44,117 bases of DNA, taken from the NCBI RefSeq assembly GCF_000367525.1, contig NZ_HF570956.1, positions 409,651 to 453,767 of the forward strand, in the 5' to 3' direction. The stretch is from Phycicoccus elongatus Lp2. GTDB taxonomy: Bacteria; Actinomycetota; Actinomycetes; Actinomycetales; Dermatophilaceae. The position numbers and the translations under genes are program-made. Position 1 is the first letter of the stretch, and every line of letters begins with the position of its first letter. A model generated the notes under the pieces. That model saw only the letters and a list, made by a program, of their open reading frames with translations, did not search any database and was not told the DNA's origin. Below are positions 10,587 through 22,126 of the stretch, one piece after another.

Positions 10587-10672
10587 TCGACGACGTGTAA
10601 CTCGATCCGATGGATGAGGGTGTTTGGGCTCAGTCCCTCTGGACCGACCTGATCCTCCTCGCCCGCACAGGA

Positions 10673-10693
10673 GATATCAACGAGCGATATCAT
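10673..10693 (+). promoter_or_regulatory. Repeated GATATCA boxes and -10-like element at the MNT gene start
   Basis: GATATCA occurs at 10673-10679 and 10686-10692, 13 bp apart, and TATCAT at 10688-10693 fits a -10 box 7 nt before the GTG at 10700. No ribosome site has suitable spacing to that GTG, so a leaderless message is likely. The boxes are candidates for autoregulation by the HTH domain of the encoded protein. Confidence 0.35.
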
Positions 10694-10699
10694 CAAGGC

Positions 10700-11152
10700 G
10701 TGGAGACCGTCCGGGCCCTGCGGGAGCGCGCTGGCATGAGTCAGCGTGACCTCGCCCGAGCGACCGGAATCGCGCAGCCCAATCTCGCGGCCTACGAAGC
10801 AGGTCGACGCCCGACGACCGACAAGATCCTGGAGCGGGTCAGGATCGCAACCAGCCGTCGGCCCTCGACCGTCCTCGCGGCTCGCCGAGACGACCTCCTC
10901 GCGCTGCTCGAACGGGAGGGGATCGTCGATGTCCGCGTCTTCGGCTCCGTCGCGAGAGGGACCGACCACGCCGAGTCGGATCTGGATCTGCTCGTGGAGT
11001 TCCCCCGGGGGACCTCCCTGCTGGACGTCGTCCGGCTGGAGCGGGAGGTCAGTGACCTCCTCGGCATCCCGGTCGACCTGGTCTCCATCGGCGCCCTGGA
11101 GGGCCGCTTCGGCGAGCGGGTCCGGCGCGAAATGGTGCCGGTGGCCTCGTGA
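10700..11152 (+). CDS. XRE HTH domain fused to MNT nucleotidyltransferase (MntA-type antitoxin)
   Basis: From GTG 10700 the product is 150 residues. Residues 1-55 are a Cro/C1-type helix-turn-helix (RALRERAGMSQRDLARATGIAQPNLAAYE). Residues 75-150 are a minimal nucleotidyltransferase with GS at 82-83, ten residues, then D94 and D96 in ESDLDLLVEF. In MntA/HepT pairs this enzyme adds AMP to the HEPN toxin and neutralises it; the added HTH suggests the antitoxin also represses its own promoter. ATG 10610 is an alternative start, but the extra 30 residues are not family-like and there is no ribosome site before it. The stop overlaps the HEPN start (GTGA). Confidence 0.82.
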   Translation: METVRALRERAGMSQRDLARATGIAQPNLAAYEAGRRPTTDKILERVRIATSRRPSTVLAARRDDLLALLEREGIVDVRVFGSVARGTDHAESDLDLLVEFPRGTSLLDVVRLEREVSDLLGIPVDLVSIGALEGRFGERVRREMVPVAS

Positions 11153-11523
11153 CAAGCCAAGTGCTGGTCGCCGAGCGATTGGCGGACCTGCTCGATTACT
11201 GCGACGAGGCGGCGATCCTGGTCGGCGCGGGTCGGGAAGCCTTCTTCGCCAGCGTGATCCACCGCCGTGCTGCGGAAGCGGTCCTCAACCGGATCGGGAC
11301 GACAGTTTCCGCAGGCCTGCCTGAGGAGCTGCTCGTCCGACACCCCGAGGTGGACTGGGCTGCGTTGCGCGGCATGCGCAATCGGGTTGGCCATGAGCCT
11401 CGAGCCATGGACTGGGAGATCGTGTGGACGACGATCGAGCGTGACCTCCCTGCGTTGCGAAACCATGTGGCCGGGCACACGATCGACCCGGCGGCGTCAC
11501 CTGAGCACGGTCGGAAGGACTGA
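11149..11523 (+). CDS. HEPN-domain protein (HepT-like, DUF86 type), putative toxin
   Basis: The 124-residue all-helical protein is read from GTG 11149, overlapping the MNT gene stop. The HEPN ribonuclease motif RN-x3-H is present as R77-N78-R-V-G-H82 in MRNRVGH, followed by DWEIVWTTIERDLPAL as in HepT proteins. Studied HepT toxins have H-x-Y here, and that tyrosine is the residue AMPylated by MntA; in this protein the position is P84 (HEPR). RNA cleavage is therefore plausible, but the known neutralising modification site is missing. The stop is only 4 bp before the molybdopterin oxidoreductase start. Confidence 0.82.
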   Translation: MTSQVLVAERLADLLDYCDEAAILVGAGREAFFASVIHRRAAEAVLNRIGTTVSAGLPEELLVRHPEVDWAALRGMRNRVGHEPRAMDWEIVWTTIERDLPALRNHVAGHTIDPAASPEHGRKD

Positions 11524-11527
11524 ACCC

Positions 11528-13669
11528 ATGAACGACAGCGCGACCGATCCCGTCGAGCGGACGGCATACATCACCTGCGTGCTCTGCGAGGCGAGCTGTG
11601 GCCTCGAGGTCAAACTGCGCGACGAGCAGATCGAGTCGATCCGCGGCCACGAGGGTGACCCGCTGAGCCGCGGCCACATCTGCCCGAAAGCCATTGCGCT
11701 GCAGGACATCCATGCTGACCCTGATCGGCTGCGCAAGCCGGTGCGGCGCGCCGGCGACGACTGGGTCGAGATGGAGTGGGACGAGGCGATCAGCCTGGTC
11801 GCCACCAGGCTCGCGCAGGTCCAGGCCGAACACGGTCGCAATGGTGTCGGTGTCTACCTCGGGAATCCCAACGTCCACTCGCTCGGGGCATTGACCCACG
11901 GCATCAACCTCGTCCGCACCCTGGGCACGAAGAACACCTTCAGCGCCACGTCGGTCGACCAGTTGCCGCACCAACTCATGGCGTGGGCCCTCTACGGCCA
12001 CCAGTTCCTCCTGCCGGTGCCCGACATCGACCGCACCGACCTGCTCGTGCTCTTCGGCCACAACCCGATGGCCAGCAACGGCTCGATCTGGACGGTTCCG
12101 GACTTCCCCGCCCGGCGTCGCGAACTCGCCTCTCGCGGAGGACGATTCGTCGTCGTGGATCCGCGTCGCACGGAGACGGCCAAGGTTGCCGACGAGCATC
12201 ACTTCGTCCGACCCGGCACCGACGTCTGGGTGCTCTTGGCGATGTTGCGCGAGGTGCTGGCGCTGGGCGCCAGCCCCGCGGCATATGTCGACGGGGTGGA
12301 GGCGGTGCGGCGAGCGGTCGAGCCCTTCACCCCCGAGGTGGCCGAGTCCTTCTCCGGTATGCCGGCCGCCACGATCCGGGGGTTGGCGGCGGACCTGCAC
12401 GGGGCGCGGGCGGCTGCGCTCCACGGCCGGATGGGGGTGTCGACCCAGGCCTATGGCGTGGTGTGCCAGTGGGCGATTCAATGCATCAACATCCTCACCG
12501 GCAACCTCGACCGACCCGGCGGGACCATGCTCACGTCACCGGCGATTGATCTCGTCGGGCACAAGATCGTCGCGGCCGGGCACTTCGGGGCGTGGCAGTC
12601 GCGGGCAAAGGGGTTGCCGGAGTTCGGATCCGAGCTTCCTGTGTCGACACTGGCCGACGAGATCCTGACCCCGGGGGAGGGGCAGATCCGAGGCTTGGTG
12701 TCGATCGCCGGCAACCCAGTGTCGTCGACGCCCGGTGGGCACCGGTTGGACGAGGCGCTGGGCGGGCTCGACTTCATGGTCGCCATCGACATCTATGTCA
12801 ACGAGACGACCCGGCACGCGGACGTGATCCTGCCGCCGACCGGGCCGCTGGAGCGGGAGCACTACGACCTGATCTTCCACACTCTTGCCGTGCGCAACAC
12901 GGCGCGCTGGTCGCCCGCGCTCTTCGAGAAGCCGGATGACGCCCGCCACGACTGGGAGGTCGCGCGCGATCTGGCGCTGGCCCTCATCCGGGCCCGCGGC
13001 GAGAAGCCGTCGGTCGTGGACCAAGGGCGATTCCGCGTGCCGCCGCGGATGATTGTCGACGGGCTCCTGCGGGTCGGACCGGTGCGCGGTGGGGTCAAGA
13101 AGGTCGCGAAGCGACCCGGCGGGATCGATCTCGGGCCGCTGGAGTCGGTGCTGCCTGACCGGCTGCAGACGCCGACGAAGCGGATCGACCTGGCGCACGA
13201 CGTGCCGATGTCGGCCGTCGCCGAGCTGGCCGATCACCTGGACGTGGGTCCGATCCGGCTGGCGCCCGACGAGCTGCTGCTCATCGGTCGGCGCCACCAG
13301 CGCGACAACAACTCGTGGCTGCACAACGCGCCGCGCCTGACGAAGGGCCGAGCGCGCCACCAGTTGCTCGTCCACCCCGACGATCTCGCGAAGCGTGGGA
13401 TCGTGGACGGTGACGAGGTGTCGGTGCGATCCGCGAGTGGGCAGATCGTCGTCGAATGCGCGGCCAGCGAGGACATGATGCGCGGCGTGGTGTCGCTGCC
13501 CCACGGCTATGGGCACGGTCGCAAAGCTGGTGTGCGGATGCGGCACGCGGTGACGCTGCCGGGTGCGTCCATCAACGACCTCACCGACCCCTCACGCACC
13601 GAGCAGGTCAGCGCCAACGGCGTCCTCAACGGTGTGCCCGTGACTTTGGCGCCCGGACCGCCCGCCTGA
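11528..13669 (+). CDS. Molybdopterin oxidoreductase (formate dehydrogenase alpha/BisC-like)
   Basis: The 713-residue member of the DMSO-reductase superfamily has an N-terminal [4Fe-4S] site C17-x2-C20-x3-C24-x27-C52, then the molybdopterin-binding core and a C-terminal molydopterin dinucleotide-binding domain (LLIGRRHQRDNNSWLHNAP, GDEVSVRSASGQIVVE). Around the expected metal-ligand position the sequence is SATSVDQLPHQ with no Cys or Sec, so the ligand may be Ser or Asp. There is no Tat signal, so it is cytoplasmic. No partner subunit gene is adjacent, so the electron partner is unknown. The substrate cannot be assigned; formate dehydrogenase is only the generic label. ATG 11528 is 4 bp after the HEPN stop, so the genes are probably co-transcribed. 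A MobA-like gene lies at 30.1-30.7 kb. Confidence 0.88.
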   Translation: MNDSATDPVERTAYITCVLCEASCGLEVKLRDEQIESIRGHEGDPLSRGHICPKAIALQDIHADPDRLRKPVRRAGDDWVEMEWDEAISLVATRLAQVQAEHGRNGVGVYLGNPNVHSLGALTHGINLVRTLGTKNTFSATSVDQLPHQLMAWALYGHQFLLPVPDIDRTDLLVLFGHNPMASNGSIWTVPDFPARRRELASRGGRFVVVDPRRTETAKVADEHHFVRPGTDVWVLLAMLREVLALGASPAAYVDGVEAVRRAVEPFTPEVAESFSGMPAATIRGLAADLHGARAAALHGRMGVSTQAYGVVCQWAIQCINILTGNLDRPGGTMLTSPAIDLVGHKIVAAGHFGAWQSRAKGLPEFGSELPVSTLADEILTPGEGQIRGLVSIAGNPVSSTPGGHRLDEALGGLDFMVAIDIYVNETTRHADVILPPTGPLEREHYDLIFHTLAVRNTARWSPALFEKPDDARHDWEVARDLALALIRARGEKPSVVDQGRFRVPPRMIVDGLLRVGPVRGGVKKVAKRPGGIDLGPLESVLPDRLQTPTKRIDLAHDVPMSAVAELADHLDVGPIRLAPDELLLIGRRHQRDNNSWLHNAPRLTKGRARHQLLVHPDDLAKRGIVDGDEVSVRSASGQIVVECAASEDMMRGVVSLPHGYGHGRKAGVRMRHAVTLPGASINDLTDPSRTEQVSANGVLNGVPVTLAPGPPA

Positions 13670-13693: not shown

Positions 13694-13737
13694 GCGTCCG
13701 CGTCTTCCGTCGTTATGGCAACGGAACACGCGGACGC
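13694..13737. repeat. Dispersed hairpin repeat, copy A
   Basis: GCGTCCGCGT (13694-13703) pairs with ACGCGGACGC (13728-13737), and inside it TTCCGT pairs with ACGGAA, giving 16 pairs around a 10-nt loop. It is preceded by CCTT and contains ATGGCAAC, features shared with copies at 20327 and 33871. It lies between convergent genes and covers the TetR stop codon, so this copy may also terminate both transcripts. Confidence 0.65.
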
Positions 13738-14309
13738 TGGGTGGGGGTTTCCTGCAGCGCTTCCAGGGCTCGAGTGCAGTGGGCCACCAGGGCCGTGACC
13801 TCCACATTCGAGGCGTCCGCTGAGGACTCGATGGCCCGGTCCTCGACGTAGGCGACCCAGGCGTGGACCACGGGTCGCGCCGCCGCGGCATACCCACAAC
13901 GCTCGATGACGAGGTCGGCGAGGCGGGCGCGCAGGGTGGTCGCGAATTCCTCCTCGCCCTCCGGCGTCGGGATCGACACCGGCCCTTGACCGAAGACGAG
14001 GGCGACATAGAAGGCTCGCCGTCGCCGGATCTGCTCGATGAAGCGGCGCGTGACCTGCTCCAGCGCGACCTCGCCGGTTGCGCCATCGTCGGGTCGGGCG
14101 TTGCGCAGGAAGCGTCGTCCGGCCGCCGCGACGACGGCCTGGTGGTAGGCCGTCTTGGTCGGGAAGTAGTGGAAGAGCAGTCCGCGCGAGATGCCGGCCT
14201 CGGCGGCCACCGCGTCGATCGACACCTCCTGCACCGGCTTGTCGACGAACATCCGCAGCCCGATGCCGAGCAGTTGCCGACGACGTTCGTCGGGGGTGAG
14301 GCGCACCAT
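13713..14309 (-). CDS. TetR-family regulator of the acyl-CoA dehydrogenase operon
   Basis: The 198-residue protein has the TetR N-terminal helix-turn-helix (SIDAVAAEAGISRGLLFHYFPTKTAYHQAVV, about residues 30-60) and a helical ligand-binding domain. ATG 14309 (MVRLTPDERRRQLL) is preferred over 14324, because the latter would put the 5' end inside the palindromic operator at 14317-14331. The gene is divergent from the acyl-CoA dehydrogenase with only 43 bp between starts, so it most likely represses both itself and that operon, with an acyl-CoA or related metabolite as inducer (inference). Its last codons lie in hairpin repeat copy A. Confidence 0.9.
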   Translation of the reverse strand: MVRLTPDERRRQLLGIGLRMFVDKPVQEVSIDAVAAEAGISRGLLFHYFPTKTAYHQAVVAAAGRRFLRNARPDDGATGEVALEQVTRRFIEQIRRRRAFYVALVFGQGPVSIPTPEGEEEFATTLRARLADLVIERCGYAAAARPVVHAWVAYVEDRAIESSADASNVEVTALVAHCTRALEALQETPTQRPRVPLP

Positions 14310-14316
14310 AGTGCTA

Positions 14317-14345
14317 TTGAGCATTGCTCAACAAGACGCTACCGT
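14317..14345 (+). promoter_or_regulatory. TetR operator palindrome over a leaderless promoter
   Basis: TTGAGCA-T-TGCTCAA at 14317-14331 is a perfect 7+1+7 palindrome. On the plus strand TTGAGC (14317-14322) and TACCGT (14340-14345) are spaced by 17 bp as -35 and -10 boxes, with the acyl-CoA dehydrogenase ATG 7 nt after the -10. The operator thus covers the -35 box, fitting repression by the adjacent TetR protein. Confidence 0.65.
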
Positions 14346-14352
14346 CAATCCC

Positions 14353-15633
14353 ATGGACTTCGCCCACAGCTCCCGCGCCGCCGACCTTGCCGAGCGTGTC
14401 CGCACCTTCGTCGACACCGAGGTGCTGCCCGCCGAAGAGGTCATCACCGCCGACATCCTGGCCCGGCGCGCCCGCGGCGCGGACCCCTGGACGGTGCATC
14501 CGCTCATCGAGGAGTTGAAGACGAAGGCCCGGTCGGGTGGCCTGTGGAATCTCTTCCTCCCCGCCGGCCACGAGGGTGCGTATGCCGCGAAGTACGGCAC
14601 CGATGGCGCGGCGGGTCTGACCAACCTCGACTACGCGCCAGTCGCCGAGGCGACCGGTCGCAGCTATCTCGCGCCGTTGGTGTTCAACTGCAACGCGCCG
14701 GACACAGGCAACATGGAAGTGCTGCTCAAGTACGGCTCGCAGGGGCAGAAGGATCAGTGGCTCGACCCCTTGCTGGACGGTCGCATCCGCAGTGTCTTCC
14801 TGATGACCGAGCCGGGCGTCGCTTCCTCGGACGCCACCAATATGGAGGCCACCGCGCGCCTGGACGGCGACGAGGTCGTCATCAACGGACGCAAGTGGTG
14901 GTCCACCGGCGCCGGCCACCCCGACGCCAAGGTCGGGATCTTCATGGGCCTGACCGACGAGTCGGCGCCCCGCCATCAACAGCACTCGATGGTCGCCGTC
15001 CCGCTCGACGCGCCCGGCGTGAAGGTCGAGCGGCTGCTGACCGCCATGGGCGTCTACGACGAACCGATCGGCCACGGCGAGGTGACGCTCACCGACGTGC
15101 GCCTCCCGGCCGAGGCGATCATCGCTGGGCCGGGGCGGGCCTTCGAGATCGCCCAGGGCCGACTCGGGCCGGGGCGAGTGCATCACTGCATGCGCCTCAT
15201 CGGCCTGGCGGAGTACGCCCTGGAACTGGCCTGTGAGCGCTCGGTCCGTCGCGTCGCGTTCGGTAAGCCGATCGCCAACCTCGGCGGCAACCGGGAGCGT
15301 CTGGCGAAGGCACGGATCGCGATCAACCAGGCCCGATTGCACGTCCTGCACGCCGCGTGGAAGCTCGACACCTATGGCACGGCGGGCTCGCTCTCGGAGG
15401 TGTCCGAGATCAAGGCAGCAGTGCCCCAAATGGCTTGTGACGTCATCGATCTCGCCATCCAACTCCACGGTGGCGCCGGGATGGGTCCGGATTTCCCGCT
15501 CGCAACGGCCTATGCGGGCGCGCGCTCGCTCCGCCTCGCCGATGGGCCGGATGAGGTTCACCTCGGCGTCGTGGCAAGGCATCTGCTCAAGCCGTATGCC
15601 GCGGCCGCAGCGGCGGAGGCGGGTGCGCGATGA
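14353..15633 (+). CDS. Acyl-CoA dehydrogenase, ACAD10/11-like
   Basis: The 426-residue FAD enzyme has the standard ACAD order: N-terminal helical domain, central beta domain with FLMTEPGVASSDATNMEATA, and C-terminal helices with ERSVRRVAFGKPIANLG, then AIQLHGGAGMGPDFPLATAYAGARSLRLADGPDEVH. The last segment is typical of the ACAD10/ACAD11 and LvaC branch. In that branch the enzyme works with an APH-type kinase to convert 4-hydroxyacyl-CoA through a 4-phosphoacyl-CoA. ATG 14353 has no ribosome site, but a -10-like TACCGT ends 7 nt before it, so a leaderless message is likely. It is first in an operon with SDR, kinase and phosphatase genes, each joined by an ATGA overlap. Confidence 0.9.
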   Translation: MDFAHSSRAADLAERVRTFVDTEVLPAEEVITADILARRARGADPWTVHPLIEELKTKARSGGLWNLFLPAGHEGAYAAKYGTDGAAGLTNLDYAPVAEATGRSYLAPLVFNCNAPDTGNMEVLLKYGSQGQKDQWLDPLLDGRIRSVFLMTEPGVASSDATNMEATARLDGDEVVINGRKWWSTGAGHPDAKVGIFMGLTDESAPRHQQHSMVAVPLDAPGVKVERLLTAMGVYDEPIGHGEVTLTDVRLPAEAIIAGPGRAFEIAQGRLGPGRVHHCMRLIGLAEYALELACERSVRRVAFGKPIANLGGNRERLAKARIAINQARLHVLHAAWKLDTYGTAGSLSEVSEIKAAVPQMACDVIDLAIQLHGGAGMGPDFPLATAYAGARSLRLADGPDEVHLGVVARHLLKPYAAAAAAEAGAR

Positions 15634-16415
15634 GGGCGCTGGTCACCGGCGGCGCCTCCGGTCTCGGCTTGGCGCTGACGAAAGCCCTTCTCGCACAGGG
15701 AGATCTCGTCGTCGTCGGTGACCTCGCGGAGAGCCGCCCCGAGAGCGTGCCGGGCGACGCGGCATACCTCACCTTGGACGTGCGCTCCGAGCGTGACTGG
15801 GAAGCCGCCCGGGACTGGGTGGACCGCGAGTGGGGCCGCCTCGACCTGCTGGTCAACAACGCCGGCATCGCGACCGGCGGCCGGATCGACGTCGAGACGA
15901 CCGAGGACTGGCAGCGCGTCCTCGACATCAACCTGATGGGTGTCGTGCGCGGCTGTCGGACGTTCACGCCAATCTTCAAGCGGCAGAGGGACGGTCACAT
16001 CGTCAACGTTGCCTCATTGGCCGGCTTCATCCACGGGCCGGGAATGTCGAGCTACAACGCGACGAAGGCCGCGGTCGTTGCCGTCTCGGAGACGCTCGGA
16101 TTCGAGCTCGACCCTTGGGGGATCAAGGTCTCGGTCGTGTGCCCGTCGTTCTTCCGGACCAACCTGCACGAGAGCATGCGCGGCACCGACACGGCGATGG
16201 AATCGACCGCGATCGGCCTCATCACGCAGGCGCCGTTCACTGCGGCCGAGATCGCGACCGCGGTCCTCCATGGCATCGAGGCGGGTGACGCGGTCATCGT
16301 GCCCGACGACATCGCGGTCTCGATGGTCGCGATGAAGCGCACCGACCCCGAGGCGTATGCCGTGTGGGGCCGCGACGGCGCCGCGCGCCTGGCGCGTCGG
16401 GAGCTCGGCGGATGA
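15630..16415 (+). CDS. Short-chain dehydrogenase/reductase
   Basis: The 261-residue classical SDR has the cofactor motif TGGASGLGLA at residues 6-15, NNAG near 75, and the catalytic Ser ahead of YNATK (Tyr and Lys near 138-142). Asp in VVVGDLAES after the second strand favours NAD over NADP. It oxidises or reduces a secondary alcohol/ketone; in the context of the operon the likely substrate is a 3- or 4-hydroxyacyl-CoA or its keto form, analogous to LvaD, which is inference. Its start overlaps the acyl-CoA dehydrogenase stop (ATGA) and its stop overlaps the kinase start. Confidence 0.92.
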   Translation: MRALVTGGASGLGLALTKALLAQGDLVVVGDLAESRPESVPGDAAYLTLDVRSERDWEAARDWVDREWGRLDLLVNNAGIATGGRIDVETTEDWQRVLDINLMGVVRGCRTFTPIFKRQRDGHIVNVASLAGFIHGPGMSSYNATKAAVVAVSETLGFELDPWGIKVSVVCPSFFRTNLHESMRGTDTAMESTAIGLITQAPFTAAEIATAVLHGIEAGDAVIVPDDIAVSMVAMKRTDPEAYAVWGRDGAARLARRELGG

Positions 16416-17482
16416 GCGCCGACGCCGCTGCCGCAGTCCGCGAGGAAGATGCCTTTGAGGTCGCGGCCGTGACGGAATGGCTTCGGGAGAACGCAATTGA
16501 TGCCTCTGGCATCGCAGACGAGCCGATCGTCAAGCAGTTCACCGGCGGCGCGTCCAACCTGACCTATCAACTCTCCTACCCCAGCGGTCGGAACCTGATC
16601 CTGCGCCGTCCGCCCTCGGGAACCAAGGCCAAGGGTGCTCACGACATGGGCCGCGAGTTCCGGATCCAACAAGCGCTGGCACCGGTCTTTCCTCTCGTGC
16701 CACGCATGGTCGGGCACTGCCTCGACGACGCGGTGATCGGCAGCGAGTTCTACGTCATGGAACGGATCGACGGCGTGATCCTGCGCAAGGACATCCCCGT
16801 GGGCATTGGCCTCGACGAGTCCGCGACGGTGGATCGTCTGTGCGACAACGCGATTCAGGCACTCGTCGACCTCCACGGGGTGGATCCCCATGCCTCAGGT
16901 TTGGCCGAGCTTGACCGGGGTCCGGGTTACGTCGAGCGTCAGGTCGGCGGTTGGATCGAGCGGTATCGCCGGGCCCGTACCGAGGACGTGGGGGACTTCG
17001 CCGAGGTCATGGCCTGGCTCGAGGCGCACCAGCCCGCTGAGCAGCCGCACGCGATGATCCACAACGACTACCGCTTCGACAACCTCGTTCTCGACCGTGA
17101 GGACCCCACTCGCATCGTCGGCGTCCTTGACTGGGAGCTCGCGACGGTCGGGGATCCCCTGATGGACGTTGGGTCGCTCATGGCCTACTGGTGTCAGGCC
17201 GACGATCCGCAGGACGTCCGCAACATCAGGCTCCAGCCCACCGATGCCCCGGGTATGTGGACGCGCGTCCAGGTGTGGGACGCCTATGCCGAACGGCGCG
17301 GGATCACCGTGCCCGAGCAGGACCGACGGTTCTACGAGCTCTTCGGGACGTTCCGGTTGGCCGGGATCGCCCAGCAGATCTACTACCGCGCCTTCCACGG
17401 CCAGACGACCAATCCCACGGCGCGCTTCATGGGTATCGTCGTGCACGTGCTCGATGCCCGCTGTCGGGAGTTGCTCGGATGA
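16412..17482 (+). CDS. APH-family phosphotransferase (ACAD10/11 kinase-domain-like, LvaA-like)
   Basis: The 356-residue kinase has the aminoglycoside-phosphotransferase fold: FTGGASNLTYQL as nucleotide loop, LILRRPP with the ATP-binding Lys position, the Brenner motif HNDYRFDNL near residue 211, and the metal-binding LDWELATVGDP. Sequence style matches the N-terminal half of human ACAD11 and Pseudomonas LvaA, which phosphorylate the hydroxyl of 4-hydroxyacyl-CoA, rather than antibiotic-resistance enzymes. Adjacent acyl-CoA dehydrogenase and SDR genes strongly support that reading. Starts and stops overlap the neighbours by 4 bp. An ordinary aminoglycoside or choline kinase is a less likely alternative. 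Confidence 0.9.
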   Translation: MSADAAAAVREEDAFEVAAVTEWLRENAIDASGIADEPIVKQFTGGASNLTYQLSYPSGRNLILRRPPSGTKAKGAHDMGREFRIQQALAPVFPLVPRMVGHCLDDAVIGSEFYVMERIDGVILRKDIPVGIGLDESATVDRLCDNAIQALVDLHGVDPHASGLAELDRGPGYVERQVGGWIERYRRARTEDVGDFAEVMAWLEAHQPAEQPHAMIHNDYRFDNLVLDREDPTRIVGVLDWELATVGDPLMDVGSLMAYWCQADDPQDVRNIRLQPTDAPGMWTRVQVWDAYAERRGITVPEQDRRFYELFGTFRLAGIAQQIYYRAFHGQTTNPTARFMGIVVHVLDARCRELLG

Positions 17483-18162
17483 GCCGGATCTATGTGGTGC
17501 GCCACGGCGAGGCATCTTGGCACGCAGAGGACTACGACCAGCTCACTGACAAGGGCCACGCCCAGGCAAGGGCGGTGGGGGCCGAACTGGCGGCCCGCGG
17601 CATACGCCCCGATGTCGTGGTCTCGGGGACCCTGCGTCGGCACCGGGAGACCGCGGCAGGGCTGCTCGAGGGCGCCGGGTGGGACCACGCCGTGGCCGAG
17701 GACGACCGGTGGAACGAGCTCGACGCCGACGACATCGTGCGGGCGCATGCTCCGGAACACGCGACGATGACCGCTGCGCTGGCGCACTTCGCCGGGCGGG
17801 GAGCCGCCGGGGACTTCGACGCACTCTTCGGCGAGGCGATGGTGCGCTGGTTCGAGACAGGGTCGGGCTATCTGGAGTCCTATCGCGAGTTCACCCAGCG
17901 GGTGGAGGACGTGCTGGGAGCGCTCGTTTCAGGACTCGCGCCCCTGGGTCAGGCCGTCGTCGTCACCTCCGGCGGCGTCGGCAACAGCATCGCCTCCCAG
18001 GTCCTCGGCGGGGGCGCCGAGACGTGGATGCGAATCTTCGGCACCTTCCCCAACACAGGCATCATGCGGCTCTCCCACTCGGGTGAGCGGGGGCTGCGGT
18101 TGCTCTCGCTGGGCGAGATCTCGCACCTCGAACAACGGCCCGAGTTGCTCTCCGAGCGCTGA
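17479..18162 (+). CDS. Histidine phosphatase (phosphoglycerate-mutase superfamily)
   Basis: The 227-residue protein begins MSRIYVVRHGEASWH, the phosphohistidine RHG motif, followed by SGTLRRHRETA with the phosphate-binding Arg. The usual second catalytic His (THGG) is replaced here: the segment reads VVVTSGGVGNS. Proteins with TSGG exist elsewhere in the superfamily, so phosphatase activity is possible but weaker evidence than a full site. As last gene of the acyl-CoA dehydrogenase/SDR/kinase operon (ATGA overlap with the kinase) it may remove a misplaced phosphate from a phosphoacyl-CoA or a by-product; this is inference. A strong hairpin follows its stop. Confidence 0.87.
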   Translation: MSRIYVVRHGEASWHAEDYDQLTDKGHAQARAVGAELAARGIRPDVVVSGTLRRHRETAAGLLEGAGWDHAVAEDDRWNELDADDIVRAHAPEHATMTAALAHFAGRGAAGDFDALFGEAMVRWFETGSGYLESYREFTQRVEDVLGALVSGLAPLGQAVVVTSGGVGNSIASQVLGGGAETWMRIFGTFPNTGIMRLSHSGERGLRLLSLGEISHLEQRPELLSER

Positions 18163-20326: not shown

Positions 20327-20370
20327 GCGTCCGCGCGCGCCGTGCCCATGGCGACCGAACGCGCGGACGC
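20327..20370. repeat. Dispersed hairpin repeat, copy B
   Basis: GCGTCCGCGC (20327-20336) pairs perfectly with GCGCGGACGC (20361-20370). It is preceded by CTCCTT and holds ATGGCGACCGAAC in the loop region, as in copy A at 13694, with the same 44-bp length. It lies between two divergent gene starts, where a terminator would serve neither gene. Confidence 0.65.
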
Positions 20371-20422
20371 CAGGGCGGGGTCGGCGGTTGCGCGGCCGAC
20401 GCGGAAGGACTACGCACAAGGT

Positions 20423-22126
20423 ATGACCGCCACTGACGCCTTCCGCGCCGCCCGAGACCAACTCATCGACCTGCGCGAGGACCACGAGCGCGCGGTGGCC
20501 GAGTTCGCCTTCCCCGACGTGGGGGAGCGGTTCAACTGGGCGATCGACTGGTTCGACGCCATCGCGCGCGGCAACGACGAGCCCGCCCTGGTCATCGTCG
20601 AGGAGGACGGCTCGAGCACCGAGCTCTCCTTCGACGCGATCGCGGCACGCTCGGACCGGGTCGCGGCCTGGCTGAAGGAACGCGGCGTCGGCAAGGGCGA
20701 CCCCGTCATCCTCATGCTCGGCAACCAGGCCGAGCTGTGGGACCTGATGCTGGCCGTCATGAAGCTCGGCGCCGTCATCATGCCCACCACGACCGCCGCC
20801 GGCACGAGCGACCTCGAGGACCGCATCACTCGTGGCCGCGCCACGGCGGTCGTCACCACGCCCGACCAGACGTGGAAGTTCGACGGCATCGCGCCCGACC
20901 TGACCCGGATCAGCGTGGGCGAGGCCGACGGCTGGGAGGACATGCACGCGGCATACGCCATCGACGTGCCCCCGACCCCGCACCCGGGCACCGCGCCCGG
21001 CGATCCGCTCCTTCTCTACTTCACGTCCGGCACCACCAGCCGCCCAAAACTGGTGGAGCACACCCAGATCAGCTATCCCGTGGGACACCTGTCGACGATG
21101 TACTGGCTGGGCCTGCGCCCCGGCGACGTCCACCTCAACATCTCCAGCCCGGGCTGGGCCAAGCATGCGTGGTCCTGCTTCTTCGCGCCGTGGATCGCCG
21201 AGGCCACGATCTTCCTCTACAACTACACTCGCTTCGACGCGGCGAGCCTGCTCACCGAGTTGCGCGATCGCGAGGTCACGAGTTTCTGCGCGCCGCCCAC
21301 GGTCTGGCGAATGCTCATCAACGCCGACCTCTCCGGCGGAAAGGGCAGCCTGCGCGAGGTCATCGGTGCCGGCGAGCCACTCAACCCCGAGGTCATCGCG
21401 CAGGTCGACGCGGCGTGGGGGCTCATCCTGCGCGATGGGTACGGCCAGACCGAGATGACGGCTGCGGTCGGCAACACGCCGGGGTCGGTGGTCAAGGCAG
21501 GTTCGATGGGTCGCCCCTTGCCGGGGATGCCGGTCGCTCTCGTCGATCCCGCGACCGGCGAGGTGGTGGTGGGTCCCGGCGAGGGGGAGATCTGCCTGGA
21601 CCTCGCGCAGCACCCGCTGTCGTTGATGACCGGCTACCAAGGTGACGACAAGCGCAATGCCGAGGCCATGGAGGGCGGTTTTTACCACACGGGTGATGTC
21701 GCGAGTCGGGACGACGACGGCTACATCACGTACGTCGGCCGGACCGATGACGTCTTCAAGGCGAGTGACTACAAGATCAGCCCGTTCGAACTGGAATCGG
21801 TGCTGATCGAGCATCCGGCGGTCGCCGAGGCGGCGGTGGTGCCCGCTCCCGACGAGGTGCGGCTGGCGGTCCCGAAGGCCTACATCGCGCTCGCGCCCGG
21901 ACACGAGCCGGACGCGGACACGGCCCGCTCGATCCTCGCCCATGCGCGCGAGCACCTGCAGCCGTGGCAGCGCGTGCGCCGGATCGAGTTCTTCGAGTTG
22001 CCGAAGACGATCTCGGGCAAGATTCGCCGGGTCGAGTTGCGGGCCCGCGAGGAGCAACTCGCCGATGTCGAGGGCCGGCACGGTCAGGAGTGGCGCGACG
22101 ACATGTTCGAGGGTCTCAAGGGCTGA
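20423..22126 (+). CDS. Acyl-CoA synthetase, AMP-binding (medium-chain/aryl ACSM-like)
   Basis: The 567-residue adenylate-forming enzyme activates a carboxylic acid with ATP and CoA. Motifs: P-loop YFTSGTTSRPK (A3, with Ser where Gly is usual), A5 RDGYGQTEM, A7 YHTGD, A8 YVGRTDDVFKASDYKISPFELE, and the catalytic Lys in LPKTISGKIRR. The AAGTSDLEDRITRG and SSPGWAKHAWSCFFAPW segments resemble ACSM medium-chain or benzoate-CoA ligases rather than long-chain FadD. ATG 20423 is next to AAGG, with a further GGAAGGA upstream. It is not in the 14-18 kb operon, but could supply its acyl-CoA substrate (inference). The sucrase/ferredoxin-like gene follows in the same direction. Confidence 0.9.
   Translation: MTATDAFRAARDQLIDLREDHERAVAEFAFPDVGERFNWAIDWFDAIARGNDEPALVIVEEDGSSTELSFDAIAARSDRVAAWLKERGVGKGDPVILMLGNQAELWDLMLAVMKLGAVIMPTTTAAGTSDLEDRITRGRATAVVTTPDQTWKFDGIAPDLTRISVGEADGWEDMHAAYAIDVPPTPHPGTAPGDPLLLYFTSGTTSRPKLVEHTQISYPVGHLSTMYWLGLRPGDVHLNISSPGWAKHAWSCFFAPWIAEATIFLYNYTRFDAASLLTELRDREVTSFCAPPTVWRMLINADLSGGKGSLREVIGAGEPLNPEVIAQVDAAWGLILRDGYGQTEMTAAVGNTPGSVVKAGSMGRPLPGMPVALVDPATGEVVVGPGEGEICLDLAQHPLSLMTGYQGDDKRNAEAMEGGFYHTGDVASRDDDGYITYVGRTDDVFKASDYKISPFELESVLIEHPAVAEAAVVPAPDEVRLAVPKAYIALAPGHEPDADTARSILAHAREHLQPWQRVRRIEFFELPKTISGKIRRVELRAREEQLADVEGRHGQEWRDDMFEGLKG

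Follow-up and report, generated by a model that had tools for sequence, protein, structure and literature searches.

The window analysed here is a stretch of 44,117 nucleotides (nt) from Phycicoccus elongatus Lp2, with about 70% G+C, taken from a genome that consists of a single contig of 3.17 Mb. It contains four tightly joined genes, for an acyl-coenzyme A (acyl-CoA) dehydrogenase, a short-chain dehydrogenase/reductase (SDR), a kinase of the aminoglycoside phosphotransferase (APH) fold and a histidine-phosphatase-fold protein, facing a TetR-family regulator gene across a short palindrome. A previous, sequence-only reading had named this gene set, its order, the ATGA overlaps between the genes and the facing TetR gene, all of which were borne out with their coordinates:

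13713-14309, minus strand: divergent TetR-family regulator (Pfam TetR_N, 39.7 bits); an alternative upstream ATG lies at 14324
14317-14331, no strand: perfect palindrome TTGAGCATTGCTCAA, predicted from the sequence as TetR operator, 21 nt 5' of the start codon of the acyl-CoA dehydrogenase
14353-15633, plus strand: ACAD10/11-type (LvaC-like) acyl-CoA dehydrogenase, 426 amino acids (aa), ATG start at 14353, assigned by ACAD11 homology
15630-16415, plus strand: SDR, 261 aa, in the position of LvaD, predicted as a family member only (Pfam adh_short, 165 bits)
16412-17482, plus strand: ACAD11/LvaA-like kinase of the APH fold, 356 aa, a predicted 4-hydroxyacyl-CoA kinase by homology to the ACAD11 kinase domain
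17479-18162, plus strand: histidine-phosphatase-fold protein of 227 aa in which Ser164 replaces the second catalytic histidine (Pfam His_Phos_1, 79 bits)

The overlaps lie at 15630-15633 (dehydrogenase/SDR), 16412-16415 (SDR/kinase) and 17479-17482 (kinase/phosphatase-like gene). Pfam matches above cut-off comprise the N, M and C domains of acyl-CoA dehydrogenase, adh_short, APH, His_Phos_1 and TetR_N, and no HAD match was found at E 0.001 in any of the five proteins. None of the five exceeds a curated NCBIfam cut-off among the matches listed (for the SDR, the best 25 of 213), the best match of the SDR being NF004196 (267.7 bits; cut-off 297). Between positions 13600 and 18800 we found no structured RNA above gathering score, no sigma-70-type promoter and no terminator. 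The kinase (at E 1e-5) and the dehydrogenase (at E 1e-100) are the sole copies of their ACAD11 types in the genome.

The same arrangement recurs in other genera, which rules out a chance assembly of unrelated genes. An Ideonella plasmid has a gene order identical to that of the window with a LysR gene replacing the TetR gene, and a Streptomyces plasmid has the order of the window plus one extra SDR.

Homology to the ACAD11 and Lva systems

In mammalian ACAD11 (PDB 8v3u, 8v3v), a homologous kinase and dehydrogenase with mapped catalytic residues form one fused chain with neither SDR nor phosphatase, whereas in the window they are encoded by separate genes. The window dehydrogenase matches ACAD11 with an E value of 3e-125 and the window kinase matches its kinase domain with 1.1e-40. 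According to PMC12440821, R626, H634 and R637 of the ACAD11 dehydrogenase bind the phosphate, R631 positions the substrate, D753 is the catalytic base and H597 has a lesser effect, while D220 and N225 (catalytic) and R86 and R176 (on the CoA side) are the residues named in the kinase. The same text reports that ACAD11 requires a redox-active flavin adenine dinucleotide (FAD), and that ACAD10 and ACAD11 are inactive on the ordinary acyl-CoAs assayed. The two halves of mammalian ACAD10 can be replaced by bacterial relatives of LvaA and LvaC, as described in PMC11342911.

Residues were mapped with the residue number taken as the chain index plus one, and the alignments of 50 dehydrogenases and 58 kinases were composed of the window and of sequences from loci selected through their phosphatase-like gene. 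On this basis R270, R275, H278, R281 and D397 of the window dehydrogenase correspond to R626, R631, H634, R637 and D753 of ACAD11, and H241 corresponds to H597; each is invariant (50/50). D219, N224 and R176 of the kinase correspond to D220, N225 and R176. R86 cannot be mapped by number, the arginine beside the helix-C glutamate being residue 84 by the same offset; an arginine in this position, fitting the description of R86, is present in the window as R81. Arg81, Glu82, Arg176, Asp219, Asn224 and Asp240 are invariant among the kinases (58/58). The best PDB match of the kinase is 9o56 (E 8.8e-71), titled only 'aminoglycoside phosphotransferase'; no paper identifying it was found in the literature searched, so another proven substrate for it is possible.

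The proposal of a split ACAD11/Lva system thus holds, in that both proteins are homologous to the halves of ACAD11 and the mapped catalytic and phosphate-binding residues are conserved. By analogy, we infer that the chemistry of kinase and dehydrogenase is carried over from these named homologues.

The lva operon of Pseudomonas putida KT2440 has, like the window, a separate kinase (LvaA), dehydrogenase (LvaC) and SDR (LvaD). It further has LvaB, LvaE, LvaF, LvaG and LvaR, and the accessible texts of PMC6692424 and PMC12440821 make no mention of a histidine phosphatase there. Two characteristic lva features, the sigma54 regulator LvaR and the CoA ligase LvaE, were not found in the cluster. An AMP-binding acyl-CoA ligase gene, the nearest of its kind seen downstream, lies at 20342-22126 on the plus strand, 2.2 kb downstream and behind two genes on the opposite strand. 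Its best NCBIfam match is MbcS at 354.8 bits (cut-off 850), and it is possible that it is an unlinked counterpart of LvaE.

A histidine phosphatase had been regarded in the sequence-only reading as an addition not familiar from the Lva set. It is already in print, however, for the levulinate cluster of P. citronellolis LA18T (PCLA_07f0390-0396), which has the same four kinds of gene (phosphotransferase, histidine phosphatase, acyl-CoA dehydrogenase and SDR). The order there is kinase, phosphatase, dehydrogenase, SDR, in contrast to dehydrogenase, SDR, kinase, phosphatase in the window, and genes for an LvaR-like regulator, a CoA ligase and transporters lie opposite, where the window has a TetR regulator. 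The 2019 report (PMC6692424) describes homologues of lvaA and lvaC that flank the histidine phosphatase gene, notes no lvaB homologue in the region and suggests that the enzyme may remove phosphate from 4-phosphovaleryl-CoA, its authors calling for functional analysis. Among the papers listed in our searches we found no further one on a histidine phosphatase gene in an Lva-type cluster.

The phosphatase-like protein and its pairing with the kinase

The product of the fourth gene shares with branch-1 histidine phosphatases (4ij5, CobC 6e4b, PGAM5 3mxo) the fold, the RHG nucleophile motif, the second arginine and the acidic residue (a glutamate), but the second catalytic histidine is absent, its place being taken by Ser164. 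An AlphaFold2 model (predicted local distance difference test score 95.1, predicted template modelling score 0.91) has the phosphoserine phosphatase 4ij5 as its nearest PDB structure (template modelling score 0.70 by query length, 21% identity).

Relatives were collected by scanning contigs of GTDB species with the phosphatase alignment, using patterns for the RHG and WNE motifs, and the best 80 of at least 573 confirmed loci were kept. In alignment A2, which comprises 57 of these 80 loci and the window, R8, H9, G10, R54, E80, N192 and Ser164 are invariant (58/58). As the scan patterns covered RHG and not Ser164, the conservation of RHG in the scanned set is partly selected. Serine occupies position 164 in all 80 scanned relatives, as well as in all 14 phosphatase-like genes that were found via the dehydrogenase gene (window included). 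By contrast, a histidine stands opposite Ser164 in every alignable paralogue from the genome itself (9/9 of 10 other His_Phos_1 matches, L232 being unalignable); the same is true of the five PDB alignments listed, of 38 sequences matched. The change is therefore not a quirk or a sign of decay of this one genome. In the part of the literature covered, nothing on this phosphatase-like family was found under loss of the second catalytic histidine.

With the fold and most of the site intact and one defining residue replaced in every member seen, the sequences point to an altered enzyme or a module for binding, not to a gene in decay. The suggestion that the pathway has 'its own phosphatase' presumes activity and is weakened by the invariant serine. 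The window protein itself departs from three nearly fixed positions (N212 to G, Q11 to E and L6 to V) and shares a long stem with that of G002 in a tree of 92 sequences, so that the constraint on it may be looser than usual.

A survey of phosphatase co-occurrence, as the sequence-only reading had called for, revealed an ACAD11-type kinase near most of the phosphatase-like genes. In flanks of up to 6 kb, some of them shorter, such a kinase is present at 59 of the 80 loci (74%): at 53 it immediately precedes the phosphatase-like gene on the same strand and at six it is more distant, while 21 loci have none; an ACAD11-type dehydrogenase is present in the flanks of 49. The pairing expected by chance is about 0.2%, a figure calculated at a stricter threshold, at which 58 genomes with a size of very roughly 3.5 Mb hold 38 kinase places. 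Linked loci occur in Actinomycetota, Pseudomonadota and Myxococcota, and a Deinococcus record has overlapping kinase and phosphatase genes. Altogether, the pairing of the two genes is conserved in at least four phyla. On the tree of 92 sequences, linked and unlinked copies mix but cluster, with 15 changes against 23.6 in shuffled labellings, none of 500 of which was as low; six of the labels were taken from places in the whole-genome search, and L057 and L062, which have no kinase, were labelled unlinked despite an adjoining acyl-CoA dehydrogenase gene. Another arrangement of the pair is seen on a plasmid of Sulfitobacter mediterraneus (L129), where the phosphatase-like gene precedes the kinase and follows a nitronate monooxygenase gene; this locus also has an IclR regulator and two genes each for SDRs and acyl-CoA dehydrogenases.

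A second survey started from the dehydrogenase, independently of the phosphatase. It drew on 58 relatives (window included), with 37 dehydrogenase places, and on 185 genomes from the class to which a Burkholderia ubonensis genome (G058) belongs, which we take to be Gammaproteobacteria in GTDB, with 24 such places. The dehydrogenase has a kinase no more than about 6 kb away at 31 of 37 places in the relatives and at 13 of 24 in the second set, some flanks being cut by contig ends. We called a kinase window-like at 450 bits or more, using a profile built from kinases beside a phosphatase-like gene, so the border of this class leans towards linked kinases. So defined, 10 of 11 window-like kinases adjoin a phosphatase-like gene (6/7 in the relatives, 4/4 in the class of G058), against 4 of 33 other kinases (0/24 and 4/9 respectively), the sole exception among the former being the congener G001. 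Dehydrogenases without a detected kinase have no phosphatase-like gene (0/17). A canonical histidine phosphatase profile, built from the genome of the window, gave one extra match (L213), in a long open reading frame upstream of an acyl-CoA dehydrogenase gene.

The palindrome and its regulon

The sequence-only reading began its operon at 14317, which is the first base of TTGAGCATTGCTCAA, and left the palindrome unmentioned. At 14317-14331 it is the only perfect site in the genome. Three further places match at two mismatches, but a reversed control is equal in total (4 and 4), which leaves the perfect site as the only distinctive one. Within the window it is the only match at up to three mismatches, a laxity at which 0.66 are expected. 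Across genera the palindrome recurs in the form TTGAGCA-N-TGCTCAA, 20-21 nt before the dehydrogenase. In the 58 genomes, perfect sites occur at seven places in five genomes, all five with the operon, against none in the reversed control and about 0.1 expected (assuming 70% G+C and 205 Mb); two further genomes with the operon (G009, G019) lack a perfect site. Five of the seven lie 20-21 nt before the start codon of the dehydrogenase, a spacing found at 16 of the 17 dehydrogenase loci listed. The remaining one, L080, differs: in this Micromonosporaceae bin, two copies of the palindrome stand 32 bases apart at a greater distance upstream of the dehydrogenase gene (L080:244-290).

A TetR homologue is divergent from the dehydrogenase gene at 23 of the 142 loci examined, window included. 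Clustering of neighbourhoods by six-frame open reading frames was muddied by overlapping antisense frames, and we used only the TetR cluster, checked by tblastn. The core TGAGCA-N-TGCTCA is present in at least 18 of these 23 pairs and a variant in one more, while four have none among their two best palindromes. It is thus likely, judging from these patterns, that the palindrome is the operator of the TetR protein.

One relative, G011, has two additional sites. At the first, an acyl-CoA ligase gene has its likely ATG 74 nt downstream of the palindrome, and two SDR genes and a MaoC-type domain come after it; the best NCBIfam match of the ligase is long-chain-fatty-acid--CoA ligase, under cut-off. 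At the second, the palindrome is followed after 63 nt by two paired acyl-CoA dehydrogenase genes that resemble, again under cut-off, the subunits of pimeloyl-CoA dehydrogenase. These extra palindromes assign the operon of G011 to a regulon for acyl-CoA beta-oxidation, which speaks against levulinate as the only substrate.

Function of the operon and of the phosphatase-like protein

Taken together, the homology of both halves to ACAD11, the conserved residues, the kinase near most of the dehydrogenases in the relatives, the conserved pair and the palindrome argue for a 4-hydroxyacyl-CoA pathway. Our preferred explanation, which we consider probable as a whole, is a TetR-controlled operon that channels 4-hydroxyacyl-CoA, or 4-oxoacyl-CoA once the SDR has reduced it, into beta-oxidation, with the phosphatase-like protein most likely limiting phospho-intermediates. 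The TetR protein would repress through the palindrome just upstream of the dehydrogenase start, and would probably be released from it by accumulating acyl-CoA. The SDR may interconvert 4-oxo- and 4-hydroxyacyl-CoA, or may serve the 3-hydroxy step. Going by the homologues, the kinase would phosphorylate the 4-hydroxyl of the CoA thioester and the dehydrogenase, by transient oxidation with its FAD, would expel the phosphate and return 2-enoyl-CoA, which would enter beta-oxidation. The phosphatase-like protein would most likely keep phospho-intermediates low, whether it slowly hydrolyses stray species or acts on the kinase.

The operon most likely represents a version of the Lva/ACAD11 pathway for fatty acids, its substrate more likely being a longer fatty acyl chain than levulinate. 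Of the phosphorylation-based fatty or keto acid pathway that had been proposed, the Lva/ACAD11-type genes are in place and the palindromes of G011 point, in that relative, to fatty-acid beta-oxidation, whereas levulinate as the substrate found no support in this analysis.

Several observations weigh against this explanation. The link to a regulon comes from one relative, G011, and the genome of the window has no second perfect site. In the operon itself, LvaB, LvaE and a sigma54 regulator like that of P. putida were not seen. In the congener G001 (L187, G001:C20:28594-38815), palindrome, dehydrogenase, SDR and kinase are present with no phosphatase-like gene behind the kinase, nor was one found anywhere in that assembly, which is 82% complete, at E 1e-10. 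All 24 clusters with the other type of kinase in the sample of relatives likewise lack the gene. The phosphatase-like gene is dispensable.

That the phosphatase-like protein is a metabolite-repair phosphatase, acting on the wrong stereoisomer of 4-phosphoacyl-CoA or on freed 4-phosphohydroxy acid and so sparing CoA and carbon, has in our estimate slightly less than an even chance. It would account for the invariance of the nucleophile His9 together with R8, G10, R54 and E80, and for the position of the gene directly behind the kinase at 53 of 80 loci, and 4-phosphohydroxy acids do arise in mammalian cells that phosphorylate 4-hydroxyacyl-CoA (PMC11342911). Yet the second catalytic histidine is a serine in every scanned relative, and RHG was itself a search pattern, one of the 14 proteins found via the dehydrogenase (L175) reading RHA instead. 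The invariant serine is more at home with a partner of little or no catalytic activity that holds the kinase in check or assists it, in the manner of the HAD domain of ACAD10 or of LvaB with LvaA, a role to which we give a smaller though still appreciable chance. ACAD10 resembles the window in that its kinase comes with a module of a phosphatase fold whose active site is incomplete, although the folds are unrelated (HAD in the same precursor, histidine phosphatase from a separate gene). PMC11342911 describes the HAD domain as missing one of two catalytic aspartates and as having negligible phosphatase activity, while mutating the remaining aspartate raises kinase activity. P. citronellolis, with its histidine phosphatase gene and, in the region analysed, no lvaB (PMC6692424), also fits such a partner, but a pure scaffold would not need an invariant His9, R8, R54 and E80. 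We screened for DUF6285, finding none in the 58 genomes (that of the window included) and none in eight genomes that carry the phosphatase-like gene. This domain, which we take to be that of LvaB, is rare in any case (2/114 genomes), so its absence says little, also about a mutual exclusion of LvaB and the phosphatase-like gene.

An action on some unrelated phospho-compound, with co-regulation as the only tie to the kinase, seems unlikely. The 21 of 80 relatives without such a kinase in their flanks, the scatter of unlinked copies over the tree (15 changes) and the absence of the gene from G001 would all be expected if it were so; the clustering of linked and unlinked labels beyond any of the shuffles would not, nor would a pairing in several phyla that reaches 74% against some 0.2% expected, even with the expectation derived from a stricter threshold. 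A different departure from the preferred explanation concerns the substrate. Kinase and dehydrogenase might act on another hydroxyacyl-CoA, for example one with a 5-hydroxy or ring-bearing acyl chain, and the palindrome of G011 before a pair resembling (under cut-off) pimeloyl-CoA dehydrogenase allows for other types of chain; as R626, H634 and R637, through which ACAD11 binds the 4-phosphate, are conserved, we regard this as quite improbable.

The pathway itself and the presence of a phosphatase gene in it were known before; what this analysis adds is the conserved pair of kinase and phosphatase-like gene, the fixed Ser164 and the conserved palindrome. With more doubt than conviction, we suggest that a widespread bacterial histidine-phosphatase-fold family with a fixed His-to-Ser change may serve 4-hydroxyacyl-CoA kinases as a dedicated partner that gates them or removes stray products. 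If so, the accumulation of phosphoacyl-CoA would have been met by three independent solutions, namely the Ser164 family, the degenerate HAD domain of unrelated fold in ACAD10 and perhaps LvaB in P. putida. The puzzle is that the dehydrogenase already removes the phosphate, yet a phosphatase-fold protein is kept beside the kinase across phyla. Ser164 and the parallel with ACAD10 make the role of the partner directly testable with three proteins and one substrate; the palindrome provides a sequence handle on the regulon, and G001 offers a natural comparison in the form of an operon without the phosphatase-like gene.

Just upstream of the TetR gene lies a molybdopterin oxidoreductase gene (11330-13669, plus strand), whose product resembles formate dehydrogenase and thiosulfate reductase subunits, under the cut-offs. 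At 10610-11523 on the plus strand, a gene for a nucleotidyltransferase-domain protein with an N-terminal helix-turn-helix is followed by an open reading frame of 124 aa that overlaps it by 4 bases and contains RNRVGH, a motif like RNxxxH. By sequence, this looks like an MNT-HEPN toxin-antitoxin pair with a regulator fused to the MNT part, the putative HEPN part being read from the motif.

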